From IMG/VR virus record IMGVR_UViG_3300029787_000413, positions 1-20,951 of that record: a stretch of DNA of 20,951 nucleotides. One strand, written 5' to 3'. The first letter of the stretch is position 1; every line of letters begins with the position of its first letter. Origin of the DNA: a virus. This document shows positions 1,103-20,620 of the stretch, piece by piece. The translations under genes and the position numbers were made by a program. The notes under the pieces were generated by a model. The model ran no database searches. It was not told where the DNA came from and saw only the letters and a program-made list of their open reading frames with translations.

Positions 1103-1105
1103 ATA

Positions 1106-1360
1106 ATGTGGGGAGAAATATTTAAAGAAGGTCTTAAAATAGTAGGAACAAATCTACTAAAAGGTAGAGATTCTGGTGGAGGCGGCTCTGCAGGAATGAG
1201 ACCAGACTATGTAAGTTTTGATGAATACGACATGGCAATGTTGAAACCCGAAGATGTAACTGCTGTAAAAAAAGCAGATGTATCTAATTACATAACATAT
1301 CAAAAGTTTTGGAATGACAGATTATTACAATACTTAAATATGGCAAGGACAGTAAAATAA
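1106..1360 (+). CDS. Small hypothetical late protein
   Basis: This is an 84-residue protein with an amphipathic N-terminus (MWGEIFKEGLKIVGTNLL), then a Gly-rich linker (SGGGGSAG), then a polar C-terminal half. A good ribosome site (GGAGAAGGAG) lies just upstream, inside the end of the previous gene. Its stop shares one base with the next start, so it is translationally coupled within the late operon. No family is recognised. A minor virion or virion-assembly protein is the reasonable inference from its position only. Confidence 0.75.
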   Translation: MWGEIFKEGLKIVGTNLLKGRDSGGGGSAGMRPDYVSFDEYDMAMLKPEDVTAVKKADVSNYITYQKFWNDRLLQYLNMARTVK

Positions 1361-1857
1361 TGGCAAAGTACGAAGAACCAAATATAAATCCATTTGATGC
1401 CCCTATACCTGGACAGTCTTTAACAGACAAACCTGGTAACTACCCATGGGAACATCCACCAAAGTACACAGACTTTATGGAAGCATCTACATTTATATGG
1501 AATAGAATACACTTAAAAAGAAATAACCAAAGACTATTAGCTTTAATAAATTCTGGTGTACCAGTAGAATCATTAGTTAGAACTACTTTATTTAGTGGGT
1601 TTGTTAGTGGATTATGGAATCCAGATTTAGCTATATTACTTGCACCTACTATAGCTAAGATGTATGTATCATTAGCACAAGCAGGAGGATTAGAAGATAT
1701 AACTTTAGATTTACCTAGAAAGAGAATGAAAAGTGTTGTAGGTGAAATCATGGCACTTAAAGAAACTGCTAGGCCTACTACTGCAAAAGCTAGAAAAGAA
1801 AAGTTTGAGGAAGAAGTTGTAAAAGGTTTAATGTCTAGAAAGAGTGAGGAGGAGTAA
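1360..1857 (+). CDS. Hypothetical virion-associated protein
   Basis: This is a 165-residue protein with a Pro-rich N-terminus (NPFDAPIPGQSL), a central helical region containing a moderately hydrophobic stretch (LWNPDLAILLAPTIAKMYV, about residues 86-104), and a Lys/Glu-rich C-terminal tail. The tail residues KSEEE are encoded by the run of purines that also acts as the ribosome site (GAGGAGGAG) of the next gene. Start and stop each overlap the neighbouring gene by one base. The family is not recognised. Its place between coiled virion proteins and the giant internal protein suggests a structural or ejection role. Confidence 0.75.
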   Translation: MAKYEEPNINPFDAPIPGQSLTDKPGNYPWEHPPKYTDFMEASTFIWNRIHLKRNNQRLLALINSGVPVESLVRTTLFSGFVSGLWNPDLAILLAPTIAKMYVSLAQAGGLEDITLDLPRKRMKSVVGEIMALKETARPTTAKARKEKFEEEVVKGLMSRKSEEE

Positions 1858-2768
1858 TGGTATTTAATTTAAAAGGTTTAATGGAATCTGTAAGACCCAC
1901 ACAGATAGGTATTGGTGCACTTGAAACAATACAAGATAGATTTAAAGAAGATAGAGAATTAGACCAACAAAGATTAAGTAACACTATTGATTCTGCAGGA
2001 TTAATATTAGAAGATGCTAGTAAAGAAGTAGCTTTAATTAATAAAAGAACAGAATTATATAATCAAACTGTGCAAACATATGGTGCGGGGGTTGCTGATT
2101 ATCTTGCACAAAGTAAAACTTTTGCTTTGTATGATGATGTAAAAAATGTATCCGCTATGAAAGACATAGATGGGCCTGCAAGAAATGCACAACGAATTAT
2201 AGCACAGGGAGGTTTTGATACATCAGAAAATCCATATCAATTTGATACAAGAAATTCGCTATTAGATAACTTAGACAAAGTTGAGGCTGAGTTACAATCG
2301 TTAAATAATATACCCGATAAAACTGGTAAAGTTGCTATAAGAAGAAAAGAATTAGAAAAAATTAAAGGCAATATAACTGCTGAAGTTATGCCAGAGGCAG
2401 GCGTAAAAGTGTCTGCATTTCCTACAAGTATGGGAGAAGCCCAAAAAACTAAAGAGCTTGCGGCTTATCTTGCAACAGCTATAAGTTTAAATATTGATTA
2501 CATGGATAAAGATGCTATGGCTGAAATAGGATTTCCTGCAGTAACATTACAAGAAGCAGATAATGTTTTAAATATTGGAGCAGATATAAATAAGTTATCA
2601 AATACTTTTGGGCAAGATTTTACTATACAATTACTACAATCAGATAATCCTGCAGAAGTGGTGGCTGAGTATCAAAAATTATATGAAGAGCTATTAAAAA
2701 AATCATTACCTACAAATAAAACACAAGAAGACAAAAAAGATATAATTGATTTAACACCTAGTACATAA
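1857..2768 (+). CDS. Hypothetical virion/ejection protein
   Basis: This is a 303-residue, mostly helical, charged protein with no signal peptide and no catalytic motif that I can see. Several stretches look able to form coiled coils (roughly residues 20-65 and 140-170). A strong GAGGAGGAG ribosome site sits immediately before the start, inside the end of the preceding gene. It is followed after three bases by the giant gene, so the two are co-translated. In T7-like and related phages, a medium helical protein often precedes the giant internal virion protein. That analogy is the only basis for suggesting an inner-core or ejection role. Confidence 0.75.
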   Translation: MVFNLKGLMESVRPTQIGIGALETIQDRFKEDRELDQQRLSNTIDSAGLILEDASKEVALINKRTELYNQTVQTYGAGVADYLAQSKTFALYDDVKNVSAMKDIDGPARNAQRIIAQGGFDTSENPYQFDTRNSLLDNLDKVEAELQSLNNIPDKTGKVAIRRKELEKIKGNITAEVMPEAGVKVSAFPTSMGEAQKTKELAAYLATAISLNIDYMDKDAMAEIGFPAVTLQEADNVLNIGADINKLSNTFGQDFTIQLLQSDNPAEVVAEYQKLYEELLKKSLPTNKTQEDKKDIIDLTPST

Positions 2769-2771
2769 TAC

Positions 2772-5700
2772 ATGACACAGCTTTATAATTACGAAGGCGA
2801 AACATATCGTTTGGAAGAAGGTCTTACTAATGAAGAGGCAATAGAAAAAATTAAAGGTTATGTTGAAACTACAAATTTAGAAGAAAAAAAAGTAGATACA
2901 ATACCTCAAGACGAACAGCCAGAAGACGGAGGCAGTATATATAAAGAAGATAATACTGAGGCTACCATATATTCTGAAAAAATACCTTTTGGAAAATCAT
3001 TAGGATTTGTAGAAGCAGAAAAAGGTATTAGAAAAGGGTACCATATAGCGGCTGACACCATGTACCATACTCTTGCAAATATACCTGGATTATTACTAAC
3101 AAAAAAACAAGAAGAAAGAATTGAATTAGGGCAACCTATAGATGAAGTTTTAAATGAATCTCAAGTTCAATTAATGTCTGGTTATTTATATAAAGGATTA
3201 AAAAATTTACAAGGTTTGCATCAGAAAAAAATAGATAAATTAGGCGAAACAAAAACTATTGCAGGCAAAGTTTATGAAGGTCTTGGGGCCGCCCCAGGAA
3301 CAATAGCACAATATGTAACAGGATTAAGAGCAGTGCAGGCTGTACAAGTTGTACCTAAGATGGCTCAATTTGCAGTGGGTTTTGGTGCGGTAGATGCATT
3401 ACGAGAATCTGATAAAGGTGCTCTTGCCGCAAGTAAAGCATTTGCACAAGGTGCAACAATAGGCAAGTATCTAGAATGGGCAGGGCCTCTTGCACCATTT
3501 TCAAGAGTTACATCAACTGGAATACTAGGCTTTGGTTTACCTGCAGAAAATGTAGGTGATAGAGTTGCTAATGCCATATTATTTGGTGGCATGTCAGCTA
3601 TTGGCCCTATATATGGAGAAAAAACTATTATTGAAAAAAAGTTATCCGAGACAATACAAAAGAATAGAGAAAGAAAAGCTATACAGGCGTTTGAATCTAA
3701 AATAAATACTGGCACTAAAAGTTTAGAAAAATCTATTGATGAATATAATTTACTAGAAAAGCAAAGAAAAGAATTAAAAAATAAAAAGGAAGATACAAAA
3801 CAAATAGATGAGCAAATAGAAGCTAAAGGAACAGAGGTTATTACTTTAAGCACAGTCCTTAATGAATTAGATACTATCTCGTACAGAATACATCAAGAAA
3901 AATTAGACGTAACAAATCCAAAATCAGCAAGATTAAATATGATTAAGTTTGATGAAAATACTAATCAAATATTACCTAAGCATCAAGACCTAACAAAAGG
4001 ATATATATCTGGCTTAGTAGAAAAATTTGCATTGCCACCATCATTAGCACTAAAAAGATTTCCACAAGCAAAGTATGTAATTGATTTATTAAATATTTAC
4101 AGAATAGAAAACGAAGCTCTTATATTAAAATTTTTAGATGACCCTCAATATGCTAAAATAGAAAATCAAAGAGCAACAAAATTATTAAAATCAGAGCCAG
4201 GAGAAAATGGCATGATGTATTATTTTAATAAATTAAATAAAAAAGAACAGACTAGTTTAATAGATGCTATGTTTAAAATAGAAAGAGACACTGCAGTATT
4301 AATGAATAAAAAAACAGATGCTAAAATAAAAGAAGAATTATTTCCTTTCTTTGATAAAAAAACTTTAGAGATAAAACCAGAAGCCTTAACAGAAAGATAC
4401 AATTTAAAAGATAATCAAGCGTTATCTTACTTACAAATAAGAGAAAAATTAATGGAAGTTAGAGACCATTATAATACAACCATAAAACAATTTGGAACTA
4501 CTAAAATAGCAGAGATACCTAACATACCCAATTATATACCCCATATATTTTTAGGAGAATATAAAATTTTTATTGATACAGTTAAAGATGGTATTAGAAC
4601 AACTAATGAAATAAGAACAGCAAATACAAGGGTGGGTGCCAACGCTGTAAAAAAAGAAATATTAAAAAAACAACCAGAAGCCTTAATAGATATAAGAGAA
4701 ACTGAAAGAGGATACAAAGGCCAAGATGCAACAGTAAGTTATTTTGCTGATGCTGTCTCCCATAGTAAAGTAGCAGGTGAAAAATCTGTAACCTTTAGAG
4801 AAATAGTTAATGACTTATTAGCAAAAAAAGCATCGACAGTTTTTGGTGCTACCAAATTAAAAAGAAAACAAGATTTTATGCCTGGGTTTGCAGGAAGTAT
4901 AAAAAATAAAAAGCAAGTATCTGATTTTGAAACAGCTATGAACGCATATGTTGAAGGTGCAGTTAAAGCGGCAAACAAAATTAAATTACAACAAAGTGTA
5001 ATACAGTTTTTAACAAGACCTATAATAGATGGTAAAGTATATACTAGATTAACTAGAGAGGGTTTTAAAGGCGATAGAAATATAACTATTGCAAAGCTAT
5101 ACCCAGAATCCACAGCTTATGTTACTAAATTGGTTGACGTTGCGTTAGGAAATGAGATGTCAGCTATCACTAAAAAAATAGCAGATGGTGGTAGTAAAAT
5201 TGTAGCAAAGCAACTAACAAAAAATCAAATTAATAAAGCCTTTGGAGGTATAAACCAAATAACATCTCAGTTTTATCTATTTACTTACAACGCTAGATTT
5301 TTGTTAGCCCAAGGCATACAGCCCTATCAAATGATACTACCAAAGTTAGCACATTTACGAGATTTATTTGGTGGTAGAATGATAGACCCATATGCGGCAA
5401 TGGTAGATGCTATGAAAAATATAGCTAGGCCAGATGCATTTTCTACTAAGGTAATAAAAAAATCACAAGAATACTTTGCTCTTAATGAAAAATTTATGAG
5501 AGAGTTTGCGGGAGAAAATATATATCAAAAGCAAGGTAGGGGCTCTAATAGTGTAGCAAAAAGAGTTTTATGGAAATTAACTGGTAGGGGTTTAGCAGGC
5601 AGAGTAGAACAATTTTCTAGACTAAATGCTACACTAATGTTTGCACATTTAATGAGAAGAGCAGGGCTAAAAGAAAAAACAATTATAGATAATGCTTGGT

Positions 5701-8902: not shown

Positions 8903-9309
8903 TAAGCGATATTCTCCTTATTAAATAATTCTTTTAGGGGTATTAGGATACACTTAGATGCGTTTCTATCTCCTAACATTCTTGATTTATCCTTATATTT
9001 TTTAGTCAATTTTTTTATTCTGTCAACAGGAAAAACTAATTTACAGTAATCTTTCTTACCTATAGCTAAAACATGTATCCAGTAATCACATTTAGTTACA
9101 CTAATCCCACTGGGCTTTCCATTACATTCTACTTCTATGGCTATGTTTCCTGTCTTGGCCCACCAATCTCTTTCAGTCTTGACCTCAATCTTTTTATTGT
9201 AAAACATATTGTGAACTTGTTTCTCACGCATTTGTCCATACTTTAAATCAAGGTCGAACTTGTTATCGTTGTTTAGTTTAGCGTTGGTTTTTTTAGTTTT
9301 TTTATCCAT
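8902..9309 (-). CDS. PD-(D/E)XK endonuclease-like protein
   Basis: This is a 135-residue protein with a compact nuclease-type core: E29 in REKQVHNMF, then KIEVKTERDWWAKTGN (about 39-54) and IAIEVECNGKPSGIS (about 55-69), followed by CDYWIHVLA. The order of a helix Glu, an E-x-K strand and a further Glu/Gly-rich strand is that of phage PD-(D/E)XK nucleases related to Holliday-junction-resolvase or restriction folds. Metal-dependent DNA cleavage is inferred. The gene sits beside the Cas4-like exonuclease, consistent with DNA processing. One palindromic repeat (9104-9116) lies inside it, encoding KPSGIS. Confidence 0.65.
   Translation of the reverse strand: MDKKTKKTNAKLNNDNKFDLDLKYGQMREKQVHNMFYNKKIEVKTERDWWAKTGNIAIEVECNGKPSGISVTKCDYWIHVLAIGKKDYCKLVFPVDRIKKLTKKYKDKSRMLGDRNASKCILIPLKELFNKENIA
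9104..9116. repeat. 13-bp palindrome copy
   Basis: ATCCCACTGGGCT with an exact CCCACTGGG core, inside the PD-(D/E)XK-like gene (PSG reading frame). It is the leftmost exact-core copy. Confidence 0.6.
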
Positions 9310-9599: not shown

Positions 9600-10491
9600 T
9601 GCTATCCTCTTTAGGTTGTGTTACTTTCGTATACCAAAACCATTTTGGATTACGAGCCTTTGATTGTTGCTGTGGTAAAAATTGTAAGTCATCACCCCAA
9701 CAAGGTTTCTTAAAATTGCAAAACCCACATATGAGTCCGAGTTTTCTGTTGCCAGTTTTGACTTGTCTAAATGTTTCTTCTTCATCTTCAAAGCATCTTT
9801 TAAATGGTTTGTTCTCTAATAAATGACTAGCATTATCTCTTGCTATTTGTAAAGCCTTATCTCTATATTTACTATCATCACTGGGAGGAGCAGTAAGCTG
9901 TATCTCACCTGTAGATTTATTAATAACAATCCAACCACCAAAGGGTTTGTTCAATGCTTCTGCATATAAATACCCCTGGGATAAGTATCCAAATACATCT
10001 TCATCAGCTACCTTTTGAAATCCACCACCATCTTTTCCAAACTTTTTATCATATGAAAATGGGCTAGCAGATTTTATATCATATACTTTACCATCTATTT
10101 CTACATCTGTACTACCAGACATTTCTAATTCATCATGGACTTTATACTTTACTTTTTTCTGGTAACTTTCTATATTAACATTCGCTGACTTCATCATAGC
10201 ATAGACTATGATTTCTATTATATCCCCAAACATATTTCTAAGTTTAGAATTGTAAGACATCTCTTCAAAGTCATTGTCCTCATGTAGCTTTTCCATCTGT
10301 AATTGACAGATAGGTCTACCTGCATTAGACATTCTTATTCTAAATTTTTTCTCTCTTTCCTCTGTAAATTGTTTTCTTAGTGCTGTTTTACATAACTCGC
10401 CAAACTCTTCAACAACATCATCAGACATAGACACAGGCCCTTTACAAGCCTGTGCCAAAAAGTTTTGTAGTTGTTCTACTACGTTAGACAT
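9586..10491 (-). CDS. Cas4/RecB-like PD-(D/E)XK exonuclease with Fe-S cysteines
   Basis: The 301-residue protein shows the RecB/Cas4 nuclease layout: MFGDIIE (D90, E93), SGSTDVEIDG (D129), YDIKSAS (D138-x-K140) and the downstream helix GYLSQGYLYAEAL that carries the QxxxY-type motif. C62 before the core and C255, C258 and C264 after it (CGFC-x5-C) match the cysteine arrangement of the 4Fe-4S cluster in Cas4- and AddB-type nucleases. In phages such proteins act as exonucleases in recombination, replication or host DNA degradation. It is followed by the PD-(D/E)XK-like gene and preceded with a one-base overlap by a possible single-strand-binding protein. Family assignment rests on motifs; the exact polarity of action is unknown. 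Confidence 0.8.
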   Translation of the reverse strand: MSNVVEQLQNFLAQACKGPVSMSDDVVEEFGELCKTALRKQFTEEREKKFRIRMSNAGRPICQLQMEKLHEDNDFEEMSYNSKLRNMFGDIIEIIVYAMMKSANVNIESYQKKVKYKVHDELEMSGSTDVEIDGKVYDIKSASPFSYDKKFGKDGGGFQKVADEDVFGYLSQGYLYAEALNKPFGGWIVINKSTGEIQLTAPPSDDSKYRDKALQIARDNASHLLENKPFKRCFEDEEETFRQVKTGNRKLGLICGFCNFKKPCWGDDLQFLPQQQSKARNPKWFWYTKVTQPKEDSNVEG

Positions 10492-11315
10492 TATGCGGCA
10501 GTTACTTCTTCAACAACTTTAGCATCTTGTATGTCTTGCGGACTAGTTCTAGATTTAAGAACAGCATTATGTAGTTCCAAGACAGAAGCATTTTCTTTTT
10601 CAATTATTGCTTTGAAGACATCCATAGTCTCTCTGTCTTTATCAGAGAAGTCTATTTGTTTGTCGTCTATCTTTGTTTTAGCTACATAATAAACATTAGA
10701 GCCTGTCTTTCTTCTTTCAGTATCTGATAGAATAATGTTATGCCTAAACATAATTTTATTTCTTCTACCTAAACTTTCAATAGCTGTACCTATTGGATTA
10801 AAGTTAGAGCCAGATACTCTGTAAAGAACAGGATAGTTTTCTAATTTAACAGTTTCTTTTCCTGCAGTTTTACCATCCATAGTAAGTAGACCATAGACTA
10901 AACGATAACATCTAATCTTTTTTTGTTCTACTAACTTATCTGGTGTAAGATTATCCCACTCTTTTCTAGCTATTCTACCGCATTTTTGAGTGCCAAGAAT
11001 ATCTTCTTGTGGGCTATCCCATGTAGGAAAGATAACAGTTCTATTAGAATATTCCTGCTTCTCTTCATCATACGTCATGTACTGAAAGTTATTAATGAAT
11101 GGTCTAATCTTTACAGGTTTACCAAACACTTCTTGTTCACTTACAGTATCATAAGTTTTGAATACTCCCACTGGGAGTTGATTACCTTCTTCATCCGTAG
11201 CATCTCTATTAATAGTTAGCTTTGGTAAGATAGGTAGGTTGGTGCCTTTGGATTGACCAATGGCATCCATAATATCAGCATTAGACATTCCGTCTATGTT
11301 TGCTAATTCATTCAT
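10491..11315 (-). CDS. Hypothetical protein, possible ssDNA-binding protein
   Basis: This is a 274-residue soluble protein with a strong ribosome site (GGAGG, six bases before ATG). After a short helical N-terminus the body looks rich in beta strands with many aromatic and basic residues (KIRPFINNFQYMTYD, RCYRLVYGLLTM, YPVLYRVSGSNF, NKIMFRHNIIL). It ends in a helical tail with acidic residues. It lies between DNA polymerase and the exonuclease, where many phages encode their single-strand-binding protein. That position and composition are the only reasons for the suggestion; no OB-fold signature is certain. A palindromic repeat (11165-11177) falls in its N-terminal part in a different frame from most other copies. 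Confidence 0.7.
   Translation of the reverse strand: MNELANIDGMSNADIMDAIGQSKGTNLPILPKLTINRDATDEEGNQLPVGVFKTYDTVSEQEVFGKPVKIRPFINNFQYMTYDEEKQEYSNRTVIFPTWDSPQEDILGTQKCGRIARKEWDNLTPDKLVEQKKIRCYRLVYGLLTMDGKTAGKETVKLENYPVLYRVSGSNFNPIGTAIESLGRRNKIMFRHNIILSDTERRKTGSNVYYVAKTKIDDKQIDFSDKDRETMDVFKAIIEKENASVLELHNAVLKSRTSPQDIQDAKVVEEVTAA
11165..11177. repeat. 13-bp palindrome copy
   Basis: CTCCCACTGGGAG, a perfect dyad around the central base, in the possible ssDNA-binding gene. It is read in a different frame (LPVG). Confidence 0.7.
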
Positions 11316-11341: not shown

Positions 11342-13369
11342 CTAATTAGTTATATCTTCTAGATTTAACCAATCACATCCCATTTTAATCTCAATGTCTA
11401 AAGGTACATTAAAATCAATGTTGTATCTTGACTTTAACTCATTTTTCACATCGAGACAACCTTTTTTTAGTATTTTACTTAGAACTTCTACTTCAGTCGG
11501 ATACACATCGACTACTATTGAGTCGTGAACAGTGTTTATTAATAGGCTCTTACACCTATGTTCTTTCATCAGATTGTGTATATTAATACACGCAAGGGGT
11601 ACAATGTCTGCTGTTGCAAATCCTTGCACTGGATAATTCTTTACTTGTGTAGGGTAGTTTGATGAACCCCATGACATTCTTCTTATGTATGGAAAACAAT
11701 ACTGTCTCCCAGTGGGAAGAGTAACCATTTTACTTTTGATAGCTTTGTTTTCTAATTCAACATGCCATTTTGATATGTCTTTATACTTATCTAAAAATGC
11801 TTTGTAATATCTTCTCTCATCTTCTGTTCCAGACTTACCTCCATACAAAGGTTTAAATGTATGTGGCTTTGCTTCTTGTCTTGAACATTTGATTATGTCA
11901 GCAGTATACTGGTGCACATCTACACCATTAACAATATCTTCTATACCTTGTTTATCTTGTGCTAAAAATACTGCGGCCCTAAATTCTAATTGTGAATAAT
12001 CTATTTCCATAATCTTACCATCTGTAAATCTAGAACGAATAACTTTTCTAATAGGAAATGTTTTGGCTCTTGGTTGATTTTGGAAGTTAGGATTTCTACT
12101 AGATAGTCTTCCTGTAGCTGTGATACATTGCATAAAAGCAGGATGTAAATAATCTCCAATCAATGCATCTTTAATACCTTTAACAAATGTACTAAGCCAA
12201 ACTTCTAATGCATTATGTCTTGTTACTAACTCTACAAACTCTCTTATCAATCCAGAATTATATGATGCTATTCTTTTTAAAGTATCTTTATCCGTTTTAA
12301 ATCCACCCTCTGATACATCGTTAGCATACTTCACTGGTATTTGAAATCCTGCTACTTGTTCTTTCTGAATATAGTTTACACCTTCTCCACCACATGCAGA
12401 ACATTTAGATTTATTTTTGTAAGGGTCACCATTTACTTTATACTTTTGTACATAACCTACACCATGACAAACCTTACATTGTAATGCAGATGTTTTAAAT
12501 ATAGGCTCTGTCCATTTATGAATGATACCTTCAAACTCATTCTGTGAATATTTTTTTCTTCTCTTCTGTCTGCCAGATGCTTTGTCTATTCCTATGTTAA
12601 ATGTTTCTGACCAAACCTTTTTGTCTACAACTTTCTTACTATAAACCATCCATGATAATTGTTCGGGGCTTGATAAATTAATTGGAGTATCACCCATAAC
12701 TCTTTGAATTATAGTCTTTATTTTATTATGGACAAGATGGTATTCTTTTGTAAATTCTTTCTCAACTTCATCTAATAAATTTGTTTCTATGAATACACCA
12801 TTCCTTTCCATCTCAATAAGAACTAATAAAAATTCATTCATTAAATTTACTGTTTGCTGTAAGTGTGTTGCCTCTCTTAAATTATGTTGTTGTGAATCAT
12901 AAAGTTCTTTTGTTATGTCTACATCTTTTCTTCCATACTCTTCTAAAATATCTATTGGTATATCTCCAAATGATTTACCATCATTAATATATTGGTCTAC
13001 TTTGTTTACAAGTTTAGTTCCTAAGTGTCTTCTCTTACAACACTCTGATAATTTTAAAGATTGTTTTGTTCCTCTAAGTAAAACATATTCAGTTATCATT
13101 GTATCATAGACTGCACCACTGTATTTAAATCCTGCTTCTAACATCCACATTAAATCAAATTTAATATTGTGCCCTATCAATACTGTAGTTTGATTTAGTA
13201 TTTCTTGTACTGCATTAAAACTTTTAGATGCGTCACCAGTAAATTCATAATGATTAAAGAAATAATATTCTTTGTTTATTCCCACTGAGATTAATTTATT
13301 TGTAGCAATAAATGGAGATGGATTAAAATTAGTATCGTATGTTGTTTCTATATCTACTGTTGAAATCAT
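11342..13369 (-). CDS. polA: Family A DNA polymerase with 3'-5' exonuclease domain
   Basis: The 675-residue replicative polymerase has an N-terminal proofreading domain with DIET (D6, E8), GHNIKFD (D72) and YGRKDVD (about 145-151). The polymerase domain contains TGRLSSRNPNFQNQP (about 419-433), motif A DYSQLEFR (D457), motif B KPHTFKPLYGG (about 501-511) and motif C VHDS (D616). Between the exonuclease and palm lies an unusual insert with CKVCHGVG (C298, C301) and CSACGGEG (C323, C326), a DnaJ-like zinc-binding pattern, in the thumb region. ATG 13369 was chosen because it makes an ATGA overlap with the upstream stop and lies after GAGAAG; a GTG at 13375 would add two residues. It is the central enzyme of the replication module with the upstream helicase and primase genes. 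Confidence 0.95.
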   Translation of the reverse strand: MISTVDIETTYDTNFNPSPFIATNKLISVGINKEYYFFNHYEFTGDASKSFNAVQEILNQTTVLIGHNIKFDLMWMLEAGFKYSGAVYDTMITEYVLLRGTKQSLKLSECCKRRHLGTKLVNKVDQYINDGKSFGDIPIDILEEYGRKDVDITKELYDSQQHNLREATHLQQTVNLMNEFLLVLIEMERNGVFIETNLLDEVEKEFTKEYHLVHNKIKTIIQRVMGDTPINLSSPEQLSWMVYSKKVVDKKVWSETFNIGIDKASGRQKRRKKYSQNEFEGIIHKWTEPIFKTSALQCKVCHGVGYVQKYKVNGDPYKNKSKCSACGGEGVNYIQKEQVAGFQIPVKYANDVSEGGFKTDKDTLKRIASYNSGLIREFVELVTRHNALEVWLSTFVKGIKDALIGDYLHPAFMQCITATGRLSSRNPNFQNQPRAKTFPIRKVIRSRFTDGKIMEIDYSQLEFRAAVFLAQDKQGIEDIVNGVDVHQYTADIIKCSRQEAKPHTFKPLYGGKSGTEDERRYYKAFLDKYKDISKWHVELENKAIKSKMVTLPTGRQYCFPYIRRMSWGSSNYPTQVKNYPVQGFATADIVPLACINIHNLMKEHRCKSLLINTVHDSIVVDVYPTEVEVLSKILKKGCLDVKNELKSRYNIDFNVPLDIEIKMGCDWLNLEDITN
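11706..11718. repeat. 13-bp palindrome copy
   Basis: CTCCCAGTGGGAA, 12 of 13, in the polymerase gene, encoding LPTGR. This copy could be partly constrained by protein sequence. Confidence 0.65.
13279..13291. repeat. Degenerate 13-bp palindrome copy
   Basis: TTCCCACTGAGAT, 11 of 13, about 80 bases after the polymerase start and read in the SVG frame. Confidence 0.45.
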
Positions 13370-13578
13370 CCGCACTTCTCTACATCTTTTACTTTACTAC
13401 AATAAAACTCTTTAGCTTTATTTTGTTTCTTCTTTTTATTTTCTAATATTTTCTTTTTCTTTTCTGGGTTAGGGTCATCCTCCAGGATTATGTCCACAGC
13501 TTTGGCTGTCTCTTTGGCTACGATAAATGCACAAGCATTACAGAATGTAACTAATAATATTAATAATAATATTCTCAT
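13366..13578 (-). CDS. Small secreted or lipoprotein-like peptide
   Basis: The 70-residue product begins MRILLLILLVTFCNACAF, a signal-peptide-like stretch with cysteines at residues 13 and 16. The context before C16 (CNA) is only a marginal lipobox. The mature part is a highly charged helix (a long K/E/N run, about 38-60) ending in a pair of cysteines (FYCSKVKDVEKCG). ATG 13578 overlaps the TGA of the upstream gene (ATGA), and its own TGA overlaps the polymerase ATG in the same way, so it is co-translated with replication genes. Small phage-encoded envelope peptides can act in superinfection exclusion or as outer spanins, but here the location is early, and function is unknown. Confidence 0.65.
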   Translation of the reverse strand: MRILLLILLVTFCNACAFIVAKETAKAVDIILEDDPNPEKKKKILENKKKKQNKAKEFYCSKVKDVEKCG

Positions 13579-14036
13579 TGGTATACCATTTCCCATCTAT
13601 ATTTTAAAACAGAATTTACTGGTTGCCAAACTCTGCCTGGTCTAGTTGTCCATCCCTTACCCTCTTTAAAAGGTTTTGTTTCTGAAACTTTTTGCCACCC
13701 TACAGCTTTCATACTAGAGCCGCTTTCATAATCTAAAGTGTAAGTTAAAATTTTTTTACCTCCCATCTGTTTCCATATTCTTGCACATCTGCCATATAAA
13801 AAAGAACAAGCATTTTTTACAGGTGGTTCTTTTATACAAACCCTAAGAACCTCTAAAGTAAATTGTTCATCAAGTCTTCTTGCTAAAGGTCTACCACAAA
13901 TAGCAACACCTACCATATCATCATCGTAATTAGCCCCAATACTAAATCTATGCCCTTGGCATTTTTTGTTATGCCTATGGTGTTCAGTGACAAACTCATT
14001 TGCTTGCTTTAAAGTTAAAGGTATAGCTGTAAACAT
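13575..14036 (-). CDS. XF1762-family-like (GNAT-type) protein
   Basis: The 153-residue protein has the sequence pattern of the phage/prophage XF1762 family, thought to have an acetyltransferase-like fold: an N-terminal LTLKQANEFVTEHHRHN, then GHRFSIGA, VGVAICGRPLARRLD, LEVLRVC, NACSFLYG, and a C-terminal TYTLDYESGSSMKAVGW that looks like the GNAT acceptor-site region. The substrate is unknown. The start at 14036 was chosen because its ATG forms a TGATG overlap with the helicase stop; the longer frame upstream would run deeply into the helicase gene. It sits between helicase and polymerase genes. Confidence 0.75.
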   Translation of the reverse strand: MFTAIPLTLKQANEFVTEHHRHNKKCQGHRFSIGANYDDDMVGVAICGRPLARRLDEQFTLEVLRVCIKEPPVKNACSFLYGRCARIWKQMGGKKILTYTLDYESGSSMKAVGWQKVSETKPFKEGKGWTTRPGRVWQPVNSVLKYRWEMVYQ

Positions 14037-15253
14037 CAGTCTACAAACCTTGATAGTTCTGCTTGTAGCTGTGTAGTCACTACACCATGCCAACCAGACA
14101 TTTTATTTTTACTAATAGATAAATGTCTCTCAATAGATGTTTGTTCTAAATCATCTTTCTTTCCAATACCTATAATTAAATCTGCCTCTGCGGCTTTACC
14201 TGTCTTTGAGTTCTCCATCATATCAAACCCTATCCTTTCTCTATCATGTGCATCTGCACTTGCTTGTGATACACCTATCACACAACAATCCCTTCTCTTA
14301 CAAAGCTCTCTTGCTTGTTTATAAATCTCTCTTAACTTCTCATCTTGTCTATTGTATGCACCGCCAACATTAACTTTATCTAACTGGTCTATGATTAATA
14401 AGTCTGGATTATGTTGTTCGCAGTGGGAATCATAGTCTGACATATCCCAATCAACAGTATCATATAGCTTAATATTAGGGCTGATTTGAGACCATTTCTC
14501 CTTAGCTAAGTCCACATTTGTCGCAATTTCTTCTCTAGACATACCACAACACGCAGTAATTAGTCTCATTTGTGTACGAATTGCAGGCTCTTCATTAACA
14601 AATGCGTGTACTTTTATATCTTGATGGGCAAATCCGTTCTCATTTGCGACTAATGAAACCCAGAAAGCTGTCTTACCTGTCTCTGGCCTAGCAAAGATAA
14701 TACTAAAATTACCTTTGCCAATGCCACCTATTCTATCCTGCAACTCTCTTATATTAAAATGATAATTGTTAGAGGTATCTACACCTCTCATAATATCTTC
14801 TATGTTAGATGATACTGGTACTATTTCTTTTTCTTTTACATTGTCTATGTCATTTAGATATGTGCGAATAATGTGGAAGTTATGTGTCTTACCATTGAAT
14901 ACATCTGTTGCCATGTTTGCCAGGTCTTTGGCTTTGTCTCTAATGTAAACTCTATTCAATGTATCTTCTATTGCTTTCCCACTGGGAACTTCTTGCTCAC
15001 TAACAATATCAATTAAGTCCTCTACATTTCTTTTGTTGGCAGTAGTAATCATAGGATTATACTTATCAAAATGTAATGTACGAAGTGTATCCATATCCAC
15101 AGCTTCTATCTCTGGATATTCTTCATATGCTTTTACTAATGTTTGGTATAGTTCATATGAACCATTAGTAAAAGTTTTCTTATTTATTTTGTTTTTTGTC
15201 CTCTGATAGAACTCTTTGTCCATCAGAAGTTTTAGCAATTTTCTCTCTAACAT
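14036..15253 (-). CDS. DnaB-like replicative helicase
   Basis: The 405-residue protein starts with a DnaB-type N-terminal helical region (LERKLLKLLMDKEFYQRT). From about residue 175 it carries the RecA-like motor: Walker A ARPETGKT (188-195), Walker B DLLIID (284-289), a GVSQAS stretch (327-332) and a C-terminal AEADLIIGIGK. It would unwind DNA ahead of the polymerase as a hexamer. Primase and helicase are separate genes, unlike the fused T7 gp4. The start at 15253 follows GAGGCGG and lies inside the upstream small gene. Two copies of the 13-bp palindrome (14417-14429 and 14976-14988) occur in its coding sequence, in different frames. Confidence 0.9.
   Translation of the reverse strand: MLERKLLKLLMDKEFYQRTKNKINKKTFTNGSYELYQTLVKAYEEYPEIEAVDMDTLRTLHFDKYNPMITTANKRNVEDLIDIVSEQEVPSGKAIEDTLNRVYIRDKAKDLANMATDVFNGKTHNFHIIRTYLNDIDNVKEKEIVPVSSNIEDIMRGVDTSNNYHFNIRELQDRIGGIGKGNFSIIFARPETGKTAFWVSLVANENGFAHQDIKVHAFVNEEPAIRTQMRLITACCGMSREEIATNVDLAKEKWSQISPNIKLYDTVDWDMSDYDSHCEQHNPDLLIIDQLDKVNVGGAYNRQDEKLREIYKQARELCKRRDCCVIGVSQASADAHDRERIGFDMMENSKTGKAAEADLIIGIGKKDDLEQTSIERHLSISKNKMSGWHGVVTTQLQAELSRFVD
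14417..14429. repeat. 13-bp palindrome copy
   Basis: TTCGCAGTGGGAA, 12 of 13, in the helicase gene, read in the third frame (SHCE). Confidence 0.6.
14976..14988. repeat. Perfect 13-bp palindrome copy
   Basis: TTCCCACTGGGAA, a complete dyad, in the N-terminal part of the helicase gene, encoding VPSGK. Confidence 0.8.
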
Positions 15254-15368: not shown

Positions 15369-15666
15369 TGAACTCACTTACTTTCATTGTCTTTACATCT
15401 TCTCTAAATTGTTTTATCAATTCTTTATTCCTAGGATTCTTAATATCTAGGGCTTCTTCTTCTGGGTCTTTAACAAAGAAGTGAGGATGCTCTGGGTTAT
15501 CTTCTATCTTTCTTTCTGGTTTTAAAATTGTTTGTTCTATACCTTTCTCTATTAAATTAAAAAAATGTTCATGCTTGTGATTGATGGTAGTATTATCATC
15601 AAAGGTTATCTCCCAATCAAATGGGGCTATATCATTTAGTTTTCTAACTCTTACTATTTTTTTCAT
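15334..15666 (-). CDS. Hypothetical protein
   Basis: This is a 110-residue acidic protein with a beta-like N-terminus (FDWEITFDDNTTINHKHEHFF), a middle region rich in Pro/Glu/His (EDNPEHPHFFVKDPEEEAL) and a basic helical end. The start follows GAGGAGTT at good spacing, inside the end of the upstream gene. No family is recognised. It is a member of the primase-helicase gene run. Confidence 0.65.
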   Translation of the reverse strand: MKKIVRVRKLNDIAPFDWEITFDDNTTINHKHEHFFNLIEKGIEQTILKPERKIEDNPEHPHFFVKDPEEEALDIKNPRNKELIKQFREDVKTMKVSEFNAKYPSKKIPK

Positions 15667-15985
15667 AACTCCTCGTATCTTTTATTATTTTAATTATTTC
15701 TTTTACTTTTTTTGTTAATGTGTTTTGCTTTAGTCTTTCTATATTATCTTTTCTACTCTTTGCTGTCATTCTAGGTAAGTAACATTCCAACTGTATCTTT
15801 CCTTCATCAAAAAGTTTGAGCCACCTGTGAAGGTTATGCACATAATAGTTTTGTAAAACTGTTGGGTTAGCTCTACCAATCTTAATCTTAACTGACTTAT
15901 TCCCATGAGGTTTATAACAGTGATGATATTTCCTATCAGTTCTAATGTACCAAAAAGCAGTACCGCAATTAATATATTTCCACAT
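15644..15985 (-). CDS. Hypothetical basic protein with His/Cys-rich N-terminus
   Basis: This is a 113-residue basic protein. The first half holds C7 and a H-H-C cluster (RKYHHCYKPHGN, about 18-29), then a region with YYVHNLHRWL (about 47-56). The second half is a Lys/Arg-rich helix (RKDNIERLKQNTLTKKVKEIIKIIK). The His/Cys content and basic tail are compatible with a small nucleic-acid-binding or HNH-like protein, but I do not see a full HNH motif. GGTGGA seven bases upstream supports ATG 15985, which directly follows the primase stop. Confidence 0.6.
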   Translation of the reverse strand: MWKYINCGTAFWYIRTDRKYHHCYKPHGNKSVKIKIGRANPTVLQNYYVHNLHRWLKLFDEGKIQLECYLPRMTAKSRKDNIERLKQNTLTKKVKEIIKIIKDTRSYEKNSKS

Positions 15986-16756
15986 CTAATATCCACCAAA
16001 CATCCCCTGTATTTTTGAGTTTCCAAGATACTTTATATCATCATCTAGTATCTTAACTTCGGTATCTACATAATACCTTAGTTGGTCGGCAATGTCAAAA
16101 GCCTTGCTTGTTGCATCTTCATCAAGACAAACATAAACCTTTTTATATTTTCTAAACACAGGTATGTAACTATCTTTTAAACTTGTTCCAAGTATTGCAA
16201 TCCCAGTGAGGCCTGCACTAAATAAAACACATGCAGATATACAATCTTCTACAAGCACAGCAGTATCTGAGTTACCTACAATGTATGGATATGTTTCTTT
16301 ACCATAGATATACCATTTAGGTTTCTCTCCTTTTAAACTTCTGCCAGTAGCATTAACAACTACATTATCTTTCTCTATAGGAAATACTAATCTGTTTTGT
16401 TTTACATCATAGTAAAAAGCTAACTGTCCTTCTCCCCATAATTTATCTAAATCATATCGTTGTAGCATTGCCATACAACCTGGCACTGTTGGAATGTTAA
16501 TAAAATGTTTTGGTATAATAAATCTTTCCATCTCTTTTTGTTTTGGATTTAAATAATTTTCTATATCTTCCATACTATATTCAGTTTGTTCTCCTCCCTT
16601 GATGTTACAAGAAGAATGAAAACAATTCCAAAGTAATTTACCATTCTCATTCCTAACACTAAATGTATTCCTGTGATAACAAAAAGGACAATCCATTCTT
16701 TTATTAGTCCCACTGGGAACATTAAGATTTTTTACTATTTCTATTTCGCTTGACAT
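15986..16756 (-). CDS. DNA primase (zinc finger plus toprim)
   Basis: The 256-residue protein has an N-terminal zinc-binding domain (C23, C26, C45, C50; CPFC...CFHSSC) like DnaG/T7 gp4 primases. This is followed by an RNA-polymerase/toprim core with ATGRSLKGEKPKWYIYG (about 136-152), the toprim Glu in AVLVEDCISA (E170), LDEDAT (D212, D214) and a ILDDDIKYLG stretch (about 237-245). It would make RNA primers for the family A polymerase. It lacks a helicase domain; that is encoded separately downstream. The start lies within the 3' end of the small gene at 16722-16892. Two copies of the 13-bp palindrome fall in it, one 37 bases after the start. Confidence 0.9.
   Translation of the reverse strand: MSSEIEIVKNLNVPSGTNKRMDCPFCYHRNTFSVRNENGKLLWNCFHSSCNIKGGEQTEYSMEDIENYLNPKQKEMERFIIPKHFINIPTVPGCMAMLQRYDLDKLWGEGQLAFYYDVKQNRLVFPIEKDNVVVNATGRSLKGEKPKWYIYGKETYPYIVGNSDTAVLVEDCISACVLFSAGLTGIAILGTSLKDSYIPVFRKYKKVYVCLDEDATSKAFDIADQLRYYVDTEVKILDDDIKYLGNSKIQGMFGGY
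16200..16212. repeat. Degenerate 13-bp palindrome copy
   Basis: ATCCCAGTGAGGC, left half intact and right half weak, in the primase gene (LTG). Doubtful member. Confidence 0.35.
16707..16719. repeat. 13-bp palindrome copy near primase start
   Basis: GTCCCACTGGGAA, 12 of 13, beginning 37 bases inside the primase gene and encoding VPSGT. Confidence 0.75.
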
Positions 16757-16892: not shown

Positions 16893-17043
16893 ACCACTCT
16901 ACATTTCCTATCCCTTGTTGAACTACACACCCCAGTGGGGCCTCTTCACATACAGGGTATGATGGACAGCTTACATGCTTATCAATGTAAACTCTTTTCT
17001 TTTTTACTTTTTTACGCTTTAAGTTTTTTTTTGATGTACTCAT
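16876..17043 (-). CDS. Small Cys-containing hypothetical protein
   Basis: This 55-residue gene was read directly from the - strand. ATG 17043 lies inside the 3' end of the upstream gene with an excellent ribosome site (CGGAGG, seven bases away). The product has a very basic N-terminus (KKNLKRKKVKKKR) and a compact Cys-containing part (HVSCPSYPVCEEAPLGC, then VEWYGHKD), perhaps metal-binding. The palindrome copy 16929-16941 encodes APLG here, a different frame from the commoner PSG/PTG reading. No family is recognised. Confidence 0.6.
   Translation of the reverse strand: MSTSKKNLKRKKVKKKRVYIDKHVSCPSYPVCEEAPLGCVVQQGIGNVEWYGHKD
16929..16941. repeat. 13-bp palindrome copy
   Basis: ACCCCAGTGGGGC: the 11-base centre CCCCAGTGGGG is a perfect dyad, though the outer bases differ from consensus. 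It is read in the PLG frame of the Cys-containing small gene. Confidence 0.55.
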
Positions 17044-17629: not shown

Positions 17630-18124
17630 CTATTGCTTGGAGAACTCTGAGATACCAACCATATCAAAGTTAATACCACTACGCATTAACAGCTTGGCTG
17701 ATTGCTCAAACTCTTGAGGGACAACCTGTATTTTAGTAACTCTAAACATATGGTCTTCCTCTATATCTACTTTCTTTAGTGTACCACCATAGCGTAACAA
17801 TCGTATCTGGTGAAACTTTAGATTAGTAAAATCATGGGGAGACCATTCTGGTTCTCCATTTAATTCTGCTTGTTTCTCTATGTATTGTCTATTGCTAAAC
17901 TCACATACAGTCATCCCTAAATCTTTAGGCATTGTAGATGGATTCCCACTGGTAGTGTATGGTTTATCATCTATGTAAGATTTAGATTTATTCCTAACCC
18001 CAAACTTGTATATGCCCTCACGCATATTTCCATTCTTTTTTTGAAACATCATATAGAAAAATCCATTGCCTATTTGATTACGCAATGCTTCCCCTAGTGT
18101 TCCTATCTGTCCTATTATAGCCAT
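17630..18124 (-). CDS. Hypothetical early protein
   Basis: This is a 164-residue soluble protein. An N-terminal MAIIGQIGTLGEALRNQIGNG is followed by a beta-rich, polar body (FYMMFQKKNGNMREGIYKF, QIRLLRYGGTLKKVDIEED) and a C-terminal region ending GISEFSKQ. AAGGAG lies five bases before ATG 18124. It stands just upstream of the structured non-coding segment and downstream of a small membrane peptide. No family is recognised and no catalytic motif is evident. Confidence 0.7.
   Translation of the reverse strand: MAIIGQIGTLGEALRNQIGNGFFYMMFQKKNGNMREGIYKFGVRNKSKSYIDDKPYTTSGNPSTMPKDLGMTVCEFSNRQYIEKQAELNGEPEWSPHDFTNLKFHQIRLLRYGGTLKKVDIEEDHMFRVTKIQVVPQEFEQSAKLLMRSGINFDMVGISEFSKQ
17943..17955. repeat. 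13-bp palindrome copy, imperfect
   Basis: TTCCCACTGGTAG, 11 of 13, in the hypothetical gene 17630-18124, encoding TSGN. Confidence 0.5.
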
Positions 18125-18270: not shown

Positions 18271-18921
18271 CTAATGTTTATGGTAACTAACATTTGGTAT
18301 TCGTTTATCCCAACAAGCTCTACAATCCCCACATGAATTGTTTTGTTTTCTTGATGGGCAGTCATAACCTATAGGCAATTTAGCACTATGCACAGTTGAA
18401 GTCCACCTATGAGACTTGACTGGCTCTCCATCAATCATAGGGGCAGATATTCTAACCACTAGATTTTTTGGAAACTCTTTAGTTTTCTTGTAATCACTAA
18501 TTAATTTTACTTCCCTTGTGGGAAGCCAATGTTTTACTTCGGGTGTACCATTACAAACCATTACAATTTTATCTAGCATTTCCATATCATGCACATCCCC
18601 AGAATCAAACCATCTGAAGTATTTAGATTTGTTAGTTTCCCTAATCATAATTATCATGGCCTCTACAAAGCCATCTTCATAAAAGGCATCAAACCTTTTC
18701 ATTAATCCATCTTGTACCGATGGGAATAGATAATTACCTTTAAAGGCATAACACCCATAACAGGTAGACCCTTTTATCTTACGAAGTCTTGCCCCAGTTT
18801 TACAGAGAGATGCAGGTATATTAAAAGTCTTGCAAGGCATCTTACTTGCTTTACCGAGTCTGGGTATAATCGCCTCGGCCTCTTTTCTAGTCATCCCAGT
18901 GGGAATAAATTTGTCAGTCAT
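18271..18921 (-). CDS. GP88-family phage protein, Cys-rich
   Basis: The 216-residue protein matches the pattern of the phage GP88 family of unknown function. It has an N-terminal cysteine set (C30, C40, C54, C57; CYGCYAFKGNY), then FRWFDSGDVHDMEML (about 102-116), HWLPTREVKL (131-140), and a C-terminal set (C188, C197, C200, C203; CGDCRACW). The eight cysteines suggest metal or Fe-S binding, and the RWFDSGD and PTR motifs are typical of the family. AAGGAG lies five bases before ATG. It is the first gene after the operator-containing promoter at 19027-19055, and an operator-like copy sits at codons 6-10 (IPTGM). Confidence 0.8.
   Translation of the reverse strand: MTDKFIPTGMTRKEAEAIIPRLGKASKMPCKTFNIPASLCKTGARLRKIKGSTCYGCYAFKGNYLFPSVQDGLMKRFDAFYEDGFVEAMIIMIRETNKSKYFRWFDSGDVHDMEMLDKIVMVCNGTPEVKHWLPTREVKLISDYKKTKEFPKNLVVRISAPMIDGEPVKSHRWTSTVHSAKLPIGYDCPSRKQNNSCGDCRACWDKRIPNVSYHKH
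18893..18905. repeat. 13-bp palindrome copy near GP88 start
   Basis: ATCCCAGTGGGAA, 12 of 13, 17 to 29 bases into the GP88-family gene and encoding IPTGM. Confidence 0.75.
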
Positions 18922-18936: not shown

Positions 18937-18991
18937 TGTGGCTTGGCACTTTGGCGTATACTTCTAAACTGTACCGAGTAACCAAGCCACA
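18937..18991 (-). promoter_or_regulatory. Long-stem hairpin in the mRNA leader
   Basis: TGTGGCTTGG at 18937-18946 and CCAAGCCACA at 18982-18991 form a perfect 10-bp inverted repeat with a 35-base loop. It lies between the promoter at 19027-19055 and the GP88-family ribosome site at about 18927-18932. In the leftward mRNA it would be a 5' leader hairpin that could protect the transcript, be cut by RNase III, or affect initiation. Confidence 0.55.
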
Positions 18992-19026
18992 CATCGATGC
19001 TTCAATTAAGTTTGCATCTAACTATA

Positions 19027-19055
19027 CTTATATCATTCCCAGTGGGCATAGTCAA
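19027..19055 (-). promoter_or_regulatory. Sigma70-type promoter with operator in its spacer
   Basis: On the - strand TTGACT (19055-19050) and TATAAG (19032-19027) are separated by exactly 17 bases. The palindromic repeat (19036-19048) fills the spacer, so a protein bound there would block RNA polymerase. The start point would be near 19020, giving a leader of about 100 bases to the GP88-family gene. Both boxes match five of six consensus bases. It faces the whole replication block. Confidence 0.6.
19036..19048. promoter_or_regulatory. 13-bp palindrome in promoter spacer (operator candidate)
   Basis: TTCCCAGTGGGCA, 12 of 13, the only clear intergenic copy. It lies wholly between the -35 and -10 boxes of the leftward promoter. 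Confidence 0.7.
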
Positions 19056-19109
19056 ACTTGTCGCACTAATGCATATTTTTTAACAGTTATGGAGAGTAGG
19101 GATACCTAT

Positions 19110-19137
19110 AGTATATCTATGTATATGGATTTGACAA
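19110..19137 (-). promoter_or_regulatory. Possible second leftward promoter
   Basis: On the - strand TTGTCA (19137-19132) and TATACT (19115-19110) are 16 bases apart, just after the terminator at 19160-19183. It overlaps the rightward candidate promoter at 19131-19158 and has no palindromic repeat in its spacer. It could be a secondary start for the GP88 transcript. The match is weaker than for the promoter at 19027-19055. Confidence 0.35.
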
Positions 19138-19158
19138 TCATGGGATAATTGGTACAAT
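19131..19158 (+). promoter_or_regulatory. Candidate rightward promoter without a sense gene
   Basis: On the + strand TTGACA (19131-19136, all six consensus bases) is followed after 16 bases by TACAAT (19153-19158). Transcription from it would run rightward, antisense to the small early genes, and its first bases would include the CCCCC/GGGGG hairpin. No + strand gene of plausible length follows. It may make an antisense RNA, or be a chance match in AT-rich DNA. Confidence 0.4.
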
Positions 19159-19159
19159 A

Positions 19160-19183
19160 AGAAACCCCCTTTATGTGGGGGCC
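19160..19183 (-). terminator. Rho-independent terminator of the right early operon
   Basis: On the - strand CCCCC (19181-19177), a seven-base loop and GGGGG (19169-19165) are followed by TTTCTTATT. It lies directly after the stop of the zinc-peptide gene (19207) and before the leftward promoters, so it separates two leftward transcription units. On the + strand the hairpin has no T run. Confidence 0.65.
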
Positions 19184-19206
19184 TTATATATAATCTATGG
19201 ATATGG

Positions 19207-19626: not shown

Positions 19627-19856
19627 GGGTTTGTTTCCTTTATGTCTTCTATGTATAAACTTTTAACTACTGATGAATCATTGTCAACAAATGTAGCTTT
19701 AGCAACTAATTCATATCTTGCGTTTATACTTCTAAATTTATTCCCAGTGGGAAGATTAAATGGAATATAAAATGTCCACTTACCATTTTTACAACTTGCA
19801 TCAAACTTACCAAAATTAATATTAAGTTTGTTGTTGTCGTCTATCCATGTTTTCAT
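19623..19856 (-). CDS. Small beta-rich hypothetical protein
   Basis: This is a 77-residue protein with alternating beta-type stretches (KLNINFGKF, WTFYIPFNL, ARYELVAKATFV). Its ATG overlaps the TGA of the GIY-YIG gene (ATGA). One of the two perfect 13-bp palindromes (19741-19753) lies in its middle, encoding LPTGN. No family is recognised. Confidence 0.65.
   Translation of the reverse strand: MKTWIDDNNKLNINFGKFDASCKNGKWTFYIPFNLPTGNKFRSINARYELVAKATFVDNDSSVVKSLYIEDIKETNP
19741..19753. repeat. Perfect 13-bp palindrome copy
   Basis: TTCCCAGTGGGAA, a complete dyad, in the small beta-rich gene and encoding LPTGN. Confidence 0.8.
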
Positions 19857-20620
19857 AATAATACTACCTTTCCATCAGTTTTATATTTATATTTTTTTCT
19901 GTAGAATTGAGAAGGATACCCGTTTTTTGGCCAAATGTCTAGTTCATTTGTTTTATATTTTTTAAACCCTTCAATAGCTTTCCACACACTTTCTTTTGCA
20001 AATTCTTTTTTAAGGTCTGTTTTTTTCATGTAGTCATCTACCCTGTTTAATCTTCTCATAATTTTACGTTTGTCCAAAAGTTTTCTAGTATTTCTTGCAT
20101 CTCGTTTTACTTTACTAATAAAATTTAATGCTTCCTCACTGGGAATATAGTATTCAATGTTGTGAACGTAATATTTATTGTAGACATCATCTTTGTAGCG
20201 ATGTTTGTTATGAAACTCATCAATTTCTTTATCTGTCATATACATATGATTATAAGTTATACGCAAGAAAGATTTGTATTTATCAGACCAAAAAGGTTTT
20301 GTAATATGCATTGTAAAAGGATTTGAATATCTCTCACTCCTTTTTATATTATATTTTGGTTTAAATTTTGATATAAACTGGCTCTCCCTTCTTTCCATAT
20401 AATCATAATCAGAATTGTAATTCCTTGATTTTATTATCCTGTAATACTCAAAATCTTTGTCTTTTTTATGAGACCTTATCCTATTATAAACATTTCTACT
20501 TATACCTATGTATACTATATTTAATTTTTGTTTTCTTGATTTTTTTAGTAGAAAATAAATTGCTGTATTAGTAGGAAAGTCTCTGTATACCTCTTTTACT
20601 TTTCCTAGTTTTATATTCAT
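19853..20620 (-). CDS. GIY-YIG family endonuclease
   Basis: The 255-residue protein has a GIY-YIG nuclease domain in its first 95 residues: AIYFLL (20-25), VYIGIS (36-41), NRIRSH (46-51), the catalytic Glu in ERRESQFI (E79) and the closing PKYN (88-91). The remaining 160 residues are very basic and helical, likely for DNA binding. Such free-standing proteins in phages are often homing endonucleases, and some take part in DNA degradation or repair. No intron is seen nearby. AAGGA is seven to eight bases before ATG. A degenerate palindrome copy (20133-20145) is inside it. Confidence 0.8.
   Translation of the reverse strand: MNIKLGKVKEVYRDFPTNTAIYFLLKKSRKQKLNIVYIGISRNVYNRIRSHKKDKDFEYYRIIKSRNYNSDYDYMERRESQFISKFKPKYNIKRSERYSNPFTMHITKPFWSDKYKSFLRITYNHMYMTDKEIDEFHNKHRYKDDVYNKYYVHNIEYYIPSEEALNFISKVKRDARNTRKLLDKRKIMRRLNRVDDYMKKTDLKKEFAKESVWKAIEGFKKYKTNELDIWPKNGYPSQFYRKKYKYKTDGKVVLL
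20133..20145. repeat. Degenerate 13-bp palindrome copy
   Basis: TCCTCACTGGGAA, 11 of 13 with the right half intact, in the GIY-YIG gene, encoding IPSEE. It is the rightmost candidate. Confidence 0.45.

Follow-up and report, generated by a model that had tools for sequence, protein, structure and literature searches.

Repression from an operator placed between the -35 and -10 boxes is a classical arrangement, as in lac- or tet-type architectures, and to our knowledge early-gene control in most uncultured marine phages is poorly known. In mycobacteriophage L5 and cluster A, a repressor acts with operators and stoperators, 13-bp sites over the phage genome that are asymmetric, monomer-bound, oriented with transcription and located in short intergenic spaces (PMC9283540). 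In another example, Bacillus phage SP-beta has been described with MrpR and a repeated element, SPBRE, a 15-bp sequence of promoter/intergenic regions in a temperate phage, with a recombinase-like binder (PMC10516654). Finally, in the HMO-2011-type group of marine podoviruses, integrase-less subgroups are thought to be lytic, and the subgroups near the phage considered here are believed to be pelagiphages (PMC9038755).

The window, i.e., the whole 20,951-base stretch of DNA analysed here, is judged from its genes to belong to an HMO-2011-type marine podovirus, probably a pelagiphage. This placement is based on its polymerase, which over nearly its full length shares 57% identity with the enzyme of Pelagibacter phage HTVC033P and 40% with that of Puniceispirillum phage HMO-2011; the family A DNA polymerase and the group's replication and structural gene set are present, and gene order matches that of the HTVC033P subgroup, with homologous primase, helicase, polymerase, terminase and capsid genes (PMC9038755). 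A DNA search of the whole window against phage records returned no match. The whole early region is seen in a 47,124-base contig, G001, whose polymerase is 99% identical to that of the window and which carries homologues of the HTVC033P terminase, portal and coat. The proteins searched included no recognisable integrase, and a lysogeny-type repressor would be unexpected because the integrase-less subgroups are thought lytic. Two further contigs, L047 and L127, represent parts of G001, and across the stretch upstream of the first gene the window is matched at 96% identity by both G001 and L048. The informative comparisons are therefore L129 and L008, which form a sister lineage (polymerase identity to the window 83-84%) and supply two independent contigs for the promoter.

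A palindromic motif with the core CCCASTGGG is repeated in this DNA far beyond chance. Ten perfect cores are found in the window against roughly 0.1 expected, the reversed control pattern occurs there 0 times, and matches with at most one mismatch number 27, against 1.26 in shuffles; G001 holds 16 perfect cores. The likeness to L5 lies in the many copies of a 13-bp site genome-wide, some L5 sites being in promoters and others able to stop elongation. Two defining features of the L5 type fail, however, and the motif is for that reason kept out of it: instead of asymmetric sites oriented with transcription in short intergenic spaces, the window has a palindrome in mixed orientation that is mostly intragenic (nine of the 10 perfect cores lie within ORFs), and no repressor gene was found among the proteins searched. 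By analogy, the system may nonetheless work in an L5-like manner, joining control of initiation with intragenic roadblocks. Like SPBRE, it is a phage-specific repeat of early promoter regions that was first noticed from sequence alone; it differs in that most copies are intragenic and in that a recombinase-like protein was not found among the proteins searched. The classical lac-/tet-type likeness is that of a palindrome lying wholly in the 17-bp spacer of a sigma-70-type promoter, but here the operator-like site belongs to a genome-wide set and its binder is putative.

That promoter, P3, consists on the minus strand of TTGACT (19055-19050), the 17-base spacer ATGCCCACTGGGAATGA and TATAAG (19032-19027), and its surroundings comprise the following features:

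19050-19055, minus strand: P3 -35 hexamer TTGACT, unchanged in the window, L047/L048, L129 and L008
19027-19032, minus strand: P3 -10 hexamer TATAAG with TG-N ahead of it (extended -10), unchanged in relatives
19036-19048, no strand assigned: operator-like palindrome in the P3 spacer, with the core CCCAGTGGG at 19038-19046, proposed from sequence and relatives
19020-19067 (limits approximate), minus strand: conserved 48-bp block with -35, palindrome and -10
18271-18921, minus strand: first gene after P3, GP88 family (Pfam PF17338) by family match
18893-18905, no strand assigned: second palindrome copy, within the beginning of the first gene, 143 bp further downstream than the P3 copy, kept in L129 and L008
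20913-20941, minus strand: right-edge promoter TGGACA-N17-TATACT with extended -10 and no motif, counterpart of G001 23360

The motif copy in the spacer reads TGCCCACTGGGAA on the minus strand (19048-19036) and TTCCCAGTGGGCA on the plus strand. It is an imperfect palindrome, in which the 9-bp core is perfect and one outer pair fails. The original prediction of TTGACT-N17-TATAAG on the minus strand proved right in all its coordinates upon re-inspection. Its statement that the palindrome exactly fills the spacer was correct in that the copy lies wholly between boxes spaced within the 16-18 bp range, and overstated in that 13 of the 17 spacer bases are covered. Overlooked at that time was the end of the spacer, TGA, directly before TATAAG (TGnTATAAG); with TG one base ahead of the hexamer, the -10 box is of the extended type. 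The weak points of P3 are a -10 box that ends in G in place of the usual final T and a rank of about 45th among the promoter-like matches in G001.

Taken alone, the P3 boxes could be chance. Promoter-like sites number 67 versus 61.5 in shuffles, and matches in the window at 5/6 per box number 16 versus 13.9 in simulation; the probability that any of the 10 copies lands in such a spacer is about 4-8% (roughly 4% when the 13-mer is considered, 7% with the core alone). Since promoter-like matches are at chance level and the spacer coincidence is of this size, the case for an operator from the single sequence is suggestive only, and it is comparison with relatives that makes it convincing at the sequence level. 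Alignment of the upstream regions of the window, L047, L048, L129 and L008 reveals a shared 48-bp block, GTGCGACAARTTTGACTATGCCCACTGGGARTGRTATAAGTATAGTTA, in which the window differs from either sister-lineage contig at two positions; the scores are 46/48 for L129 and 44/48 for L008, the latter owing to an end gap. The remaining intergenic region, in contrast, is only about 65% identical, the leader of L008 is unrelated to that of the window, and the first gene in both sister contigs is, by inspection, another GP88-like protein. Boxes and palindrome are thus conserved together in the two independent contigs. The upstream half of the block, when searched across all loci collected, was found only with the motif, and no relative among the loci compared carries the promoter without it. 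Retention of the -35/palindrome/-10 block where the first gene has changed supports the earlier proposal of an operator in the promoter of the replication genes, although that proposal was incomplete, given that most window cores are intragenic. A scan for TTGAC-N4-core-N5-TATA matched the window lineage and two unrelated contigs. One of these, the 44.5-kb phage contig L136, has the same core in the spacer of a near-consensus promoter (TTGACATTACCCACTGGGTGTGGTATAAT, 11921-11947, minus strand), which may be chance because the scan selected for such an arrangement.

Downstream of P3, L129 and L008 both retain the second palindrome copy, there within the beginning of the exchanged GP88-like gene; it lies 143 bp from the P3 copy in the window, versus 146 and 355 bp in the sister contigs. 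Because it persists though the gene differs, the two copies seem to form one control unit. Different GP88-like genes stand under one promoter (18271-18921 in the window, 1509-2258 in L008 and 3004-3774 in L129), and the motif copy near the start of each encodes I-P-T-G. No tandem operators were found. As had been noted earlier, the right-edge promoter (20941-20913) lacks a copy; so does its G001 counterpart, as well as the G001 early promoter at 23270, and these motif-free promoters support separate control of early transcripts. The further suggestion that the two early units are differently controlled is accordingly plausible, with two other strong promoters lacking the motif, but the right-hand unit is not free of it, since intragenic copies lie at 19741 and, more weakly, at 20133. 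A candidate for a second association with a promoter is seen in G001, where the divergent promoter at 22832 is closely preceded by a full copy, on the upstream side of its -35 box, and holds a half-site in its spacer. In L041 (1820-2850, corresponding to G001 21819-22849), a divergent 298-aa ORF without a family assignment has the promoter-like site TTGACA-N18-TATAAC, with a full motif copy immediately upstream and a spacer half-site.

The other intragenic copies, for which no strand is assigned, are distributed as follows:

19741-19753: codons CCC ACT GGG, conserved in L129
17216-17228: frame P-Q-W-D
16929-16941: frame A-P-L-G
16707-16719: primase gene; the sister lineage has ACT for AGT, a flip confined to the palindrome centre
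14976-14988: helicase gene
11706-11718: DNA polymerase gene
11165-11177: frame L-P-V-G
9104-9116: intragenic palindrome copy

As judged from codon comparison, these copies are under selection at the level of DNA, and the rare codons they contain are retained. When codons with a conserved amino acid only are considered, 24 of 25 over perfect cores are identical to those of the sister lineage, against some 9-10 expected from a codon-matched background (P = 5e-11), and over one-mismatch cores the figure is 15 of 15 versus 7.1 (P = 1.5e-6). Elsewhere, CCC codons are kept in one of seven cases and GGG codons in one of 12. A coarser test on whole 9-mers, with less power, points in the same direction (7/8 identical, P = 0.01 given conserved amino acids). 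The change at 16707 is the sole one there and alters the amino acid, while merely flipping the palindrome centre. Convergent protein motifs (P-S/T-G) were rejected as the origin of the intragenic copies, since the frames L-P-V-G, A-P-L-G and P-Q-W-D are used as well and synonymous sites are conserved. With so many cores inside genes and their synonymous sites maintained, the motif is best described as a putative dispersed binding-site system that extends beyond a promoter operator. The centre is G or C in all 16 G001 copies, and the adjoining A/T pair belongs to the invariant core; a centre free to be G or C between invariant neighbouring pairs is what would be expected of a protein dimer that reads double-stranded DNA. 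Motif copies are also present in the structural genes of G001. At G001 9780-9960 and in the counterparts L144, L153, L173, L177 and L178, a copy immediately follows a stop codon ahead of the capsid genes. That copy (G001 9867) was rejected as a late promoter, TATAAT being present and a clear -35 missing; for that reason, and because the sequence hardly varies among ten contigs across approximately 110 bp surrounding it, it is non-discriminating.

Every contig with a polymerase at least 83% identical to that of the window bears the motif, whereas it is absent from the 57%-identity clade that includes HTVC033P, and no comparable dispersed palindrome was found in HTVC033P, HMO-2011, CRP-1 or CRP-3. 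The early promoters of HTVC033P have spacers without such a palindrome. In its contig, L130, positions 474-4614 contain a series of early promoter-like TTGACA-N17-TATnnT sites before small genes, with no spacer palindromes. Among 289 genomes of one bacterial class, which may not be that of the host, the perfect 13-mer is not enriched; it occurs in nine, once in each and never twice. Absence from the 57% clade and the four cultured relatives, together with at most one copy per bacterial genome, favours a phage-encoded binder. A bacterial genome scan for ATTCCCASTGGGAAT gave scattered, chance-like matches and was set aside.

We consider it rather likely, from these sequence comparisons, that the spacer palindrome is an operator at which a dimeric and probably phage-encoded protein blocks RNA polymerase at P3, while also binding the dispersed sites. 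In this scheme a small DNA-binding dimer, most probably a phage product, would recognise CCCA-S-TGGG with one subunit per half-site, and, when bound at 19036-19048, would sit between the -35 and -10 boxes and keep host sigma-70 RNA polymerase off P3. Repression from the start site predicted for P3 would switch down the unit that runs from the GP88-family gene through primase and helicase to polymerase. The site 143 bp downstream may strengthen this repression via looping or a roadblock, and the further intragenic copies are probably bound by the same protein. Among the points against an operator are the location of most copies inside genes at a distance from promoters, and the lack of the motif in stronger promoters. 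More tentatively, and with some doubt, the presumably lytic lineage may combine a symmetric, orientation-independent site network in coding sequences with a repressor site in its main replication promoter. A novel type of phage protein would then control or silence the genome, acting at initiation as well as at sites inside genes, in what would be a palindromic equivalent of the stoperator system.

The intragenic abundance could also reflect a genome-wide site for a structural DNA protein, such as a nucleoid-like, partition, replication or packaging factor, with the promoter copy affecting transcription incidentally. The nine intragenic window cores, the copies in G001 structural genes and the DNA-level selection on all copies agree with this, but it leaves unexplained both the exact spacer fit with a co-conserved -35 and extended -10 and the concentration of cores in the early region (10 of the 16 in 27% of G001, P = 0.003), and we regard it as unlikely. 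The same position within the spacer would suit an activator or dual regulator that reshapes or helps a weak promoter instead of blocking it, and the P3 -10 box, TATAAG, does lack the usual final T. The MerR family, which includes an activator bound in the promoter spacer, provides a precedent; MerR promoters typically have spacers of 19-20 bp, 17 bp being optimal for unaided polymerase. P3 has a spacer of 17 bp, for which reason a MerR-type activator was ranked low, and its -10 box is extended; activation or dual regulation is considered quite improbable.

Use of the motif by a host transcription factor would be in keeping with the frequent borrowing of host regulators by phages and with a box layout of the host sigma-70 type; the single copies in nine of the 289 bacterial genomes, from a class that may not be the host's, and the related phages with similar promoters lacking the motif make it very improbable. 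Promoter-like matches being at chance level in AT-rich sequence, P3 might itself be a chance match around one motif copy, yet all of its parts are conserved with the motif amid changed surroundings, and the block immediately precedes the gene that opens a long unit; this explanation is highly improbable. Finally, the palindrome could form an RNA hairpin (5-bp stem, 3-nt loop) in phage transcripts. A short hairpin is possible on either strand and a few copies look terminator-like, but the promoter copy is upstream of the start site and would be untranscribed from P3, the bases adjacent to the centre stay complementary though unpaired in a triloop, and both centre variants are found whatever the coding strand; this reading is barely credible.

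If the putative repressor is encoded by the phage, two proteins are of interest. Pfam and PHROGs searches of the small early proteins gave no DNA-binding domain, no phage repressor of the helix-turn-helix type was recognised among the proteins searched, and Rfam and PDB sequence searches yielded no match and nothing meaningful, respectively. The protein at 15644-15985 (113 aa) is strongly basic, with a net charge of +17, and that at 17630-18124 (164 aa) has no match in family searches. Both occur almost only in motif-bearing contigs (motif status being taken from the contigs other than the short L314), which is weak evidence because the lineage searches reach close relatives only; AlphaFold gave mean pLDDT values of 40 and 45, respectively, and no usable structure. 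With an exact candidate operator, promoter and selected site set in hand, the regulator should be findable by pull-down. Should the intragenic sites be functional, a phage from a group considered mostly lytic would be constraining its protein-coding sequence to maintain a control or packing system that spans the genome.

Several minor observations accompany these results. A Mom-like DNA modification gene (13575-14093, minus strand) lies between the helicase gene and a small ORF; it is absent in G001 and in G002-G004 and intact only in L005. A GIY-YIG-like ORF (19853-20620, minus strand) is also present in L129 but not in G001, which has other ORFs at that position. The 5' leader of the putative P3 transcript contains a hairpin (18937-18991, minus strand; GUGGCUUGG...CCAAGCCAC), which matches no Rfam family and is carried by only three viral contigs, its loop being nearly identical in L129 despite the different first gene. 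At 19131-19184, a rightward promoter-like TTGACA-N16-TACAAT, with TG before the -10 box, points straight into a G+C hairpin; the site reads TTGACT-N16-TATAAT in L129/L008, and a comparable layout seems to precede the GP88 genes of L049-L054 and L066.
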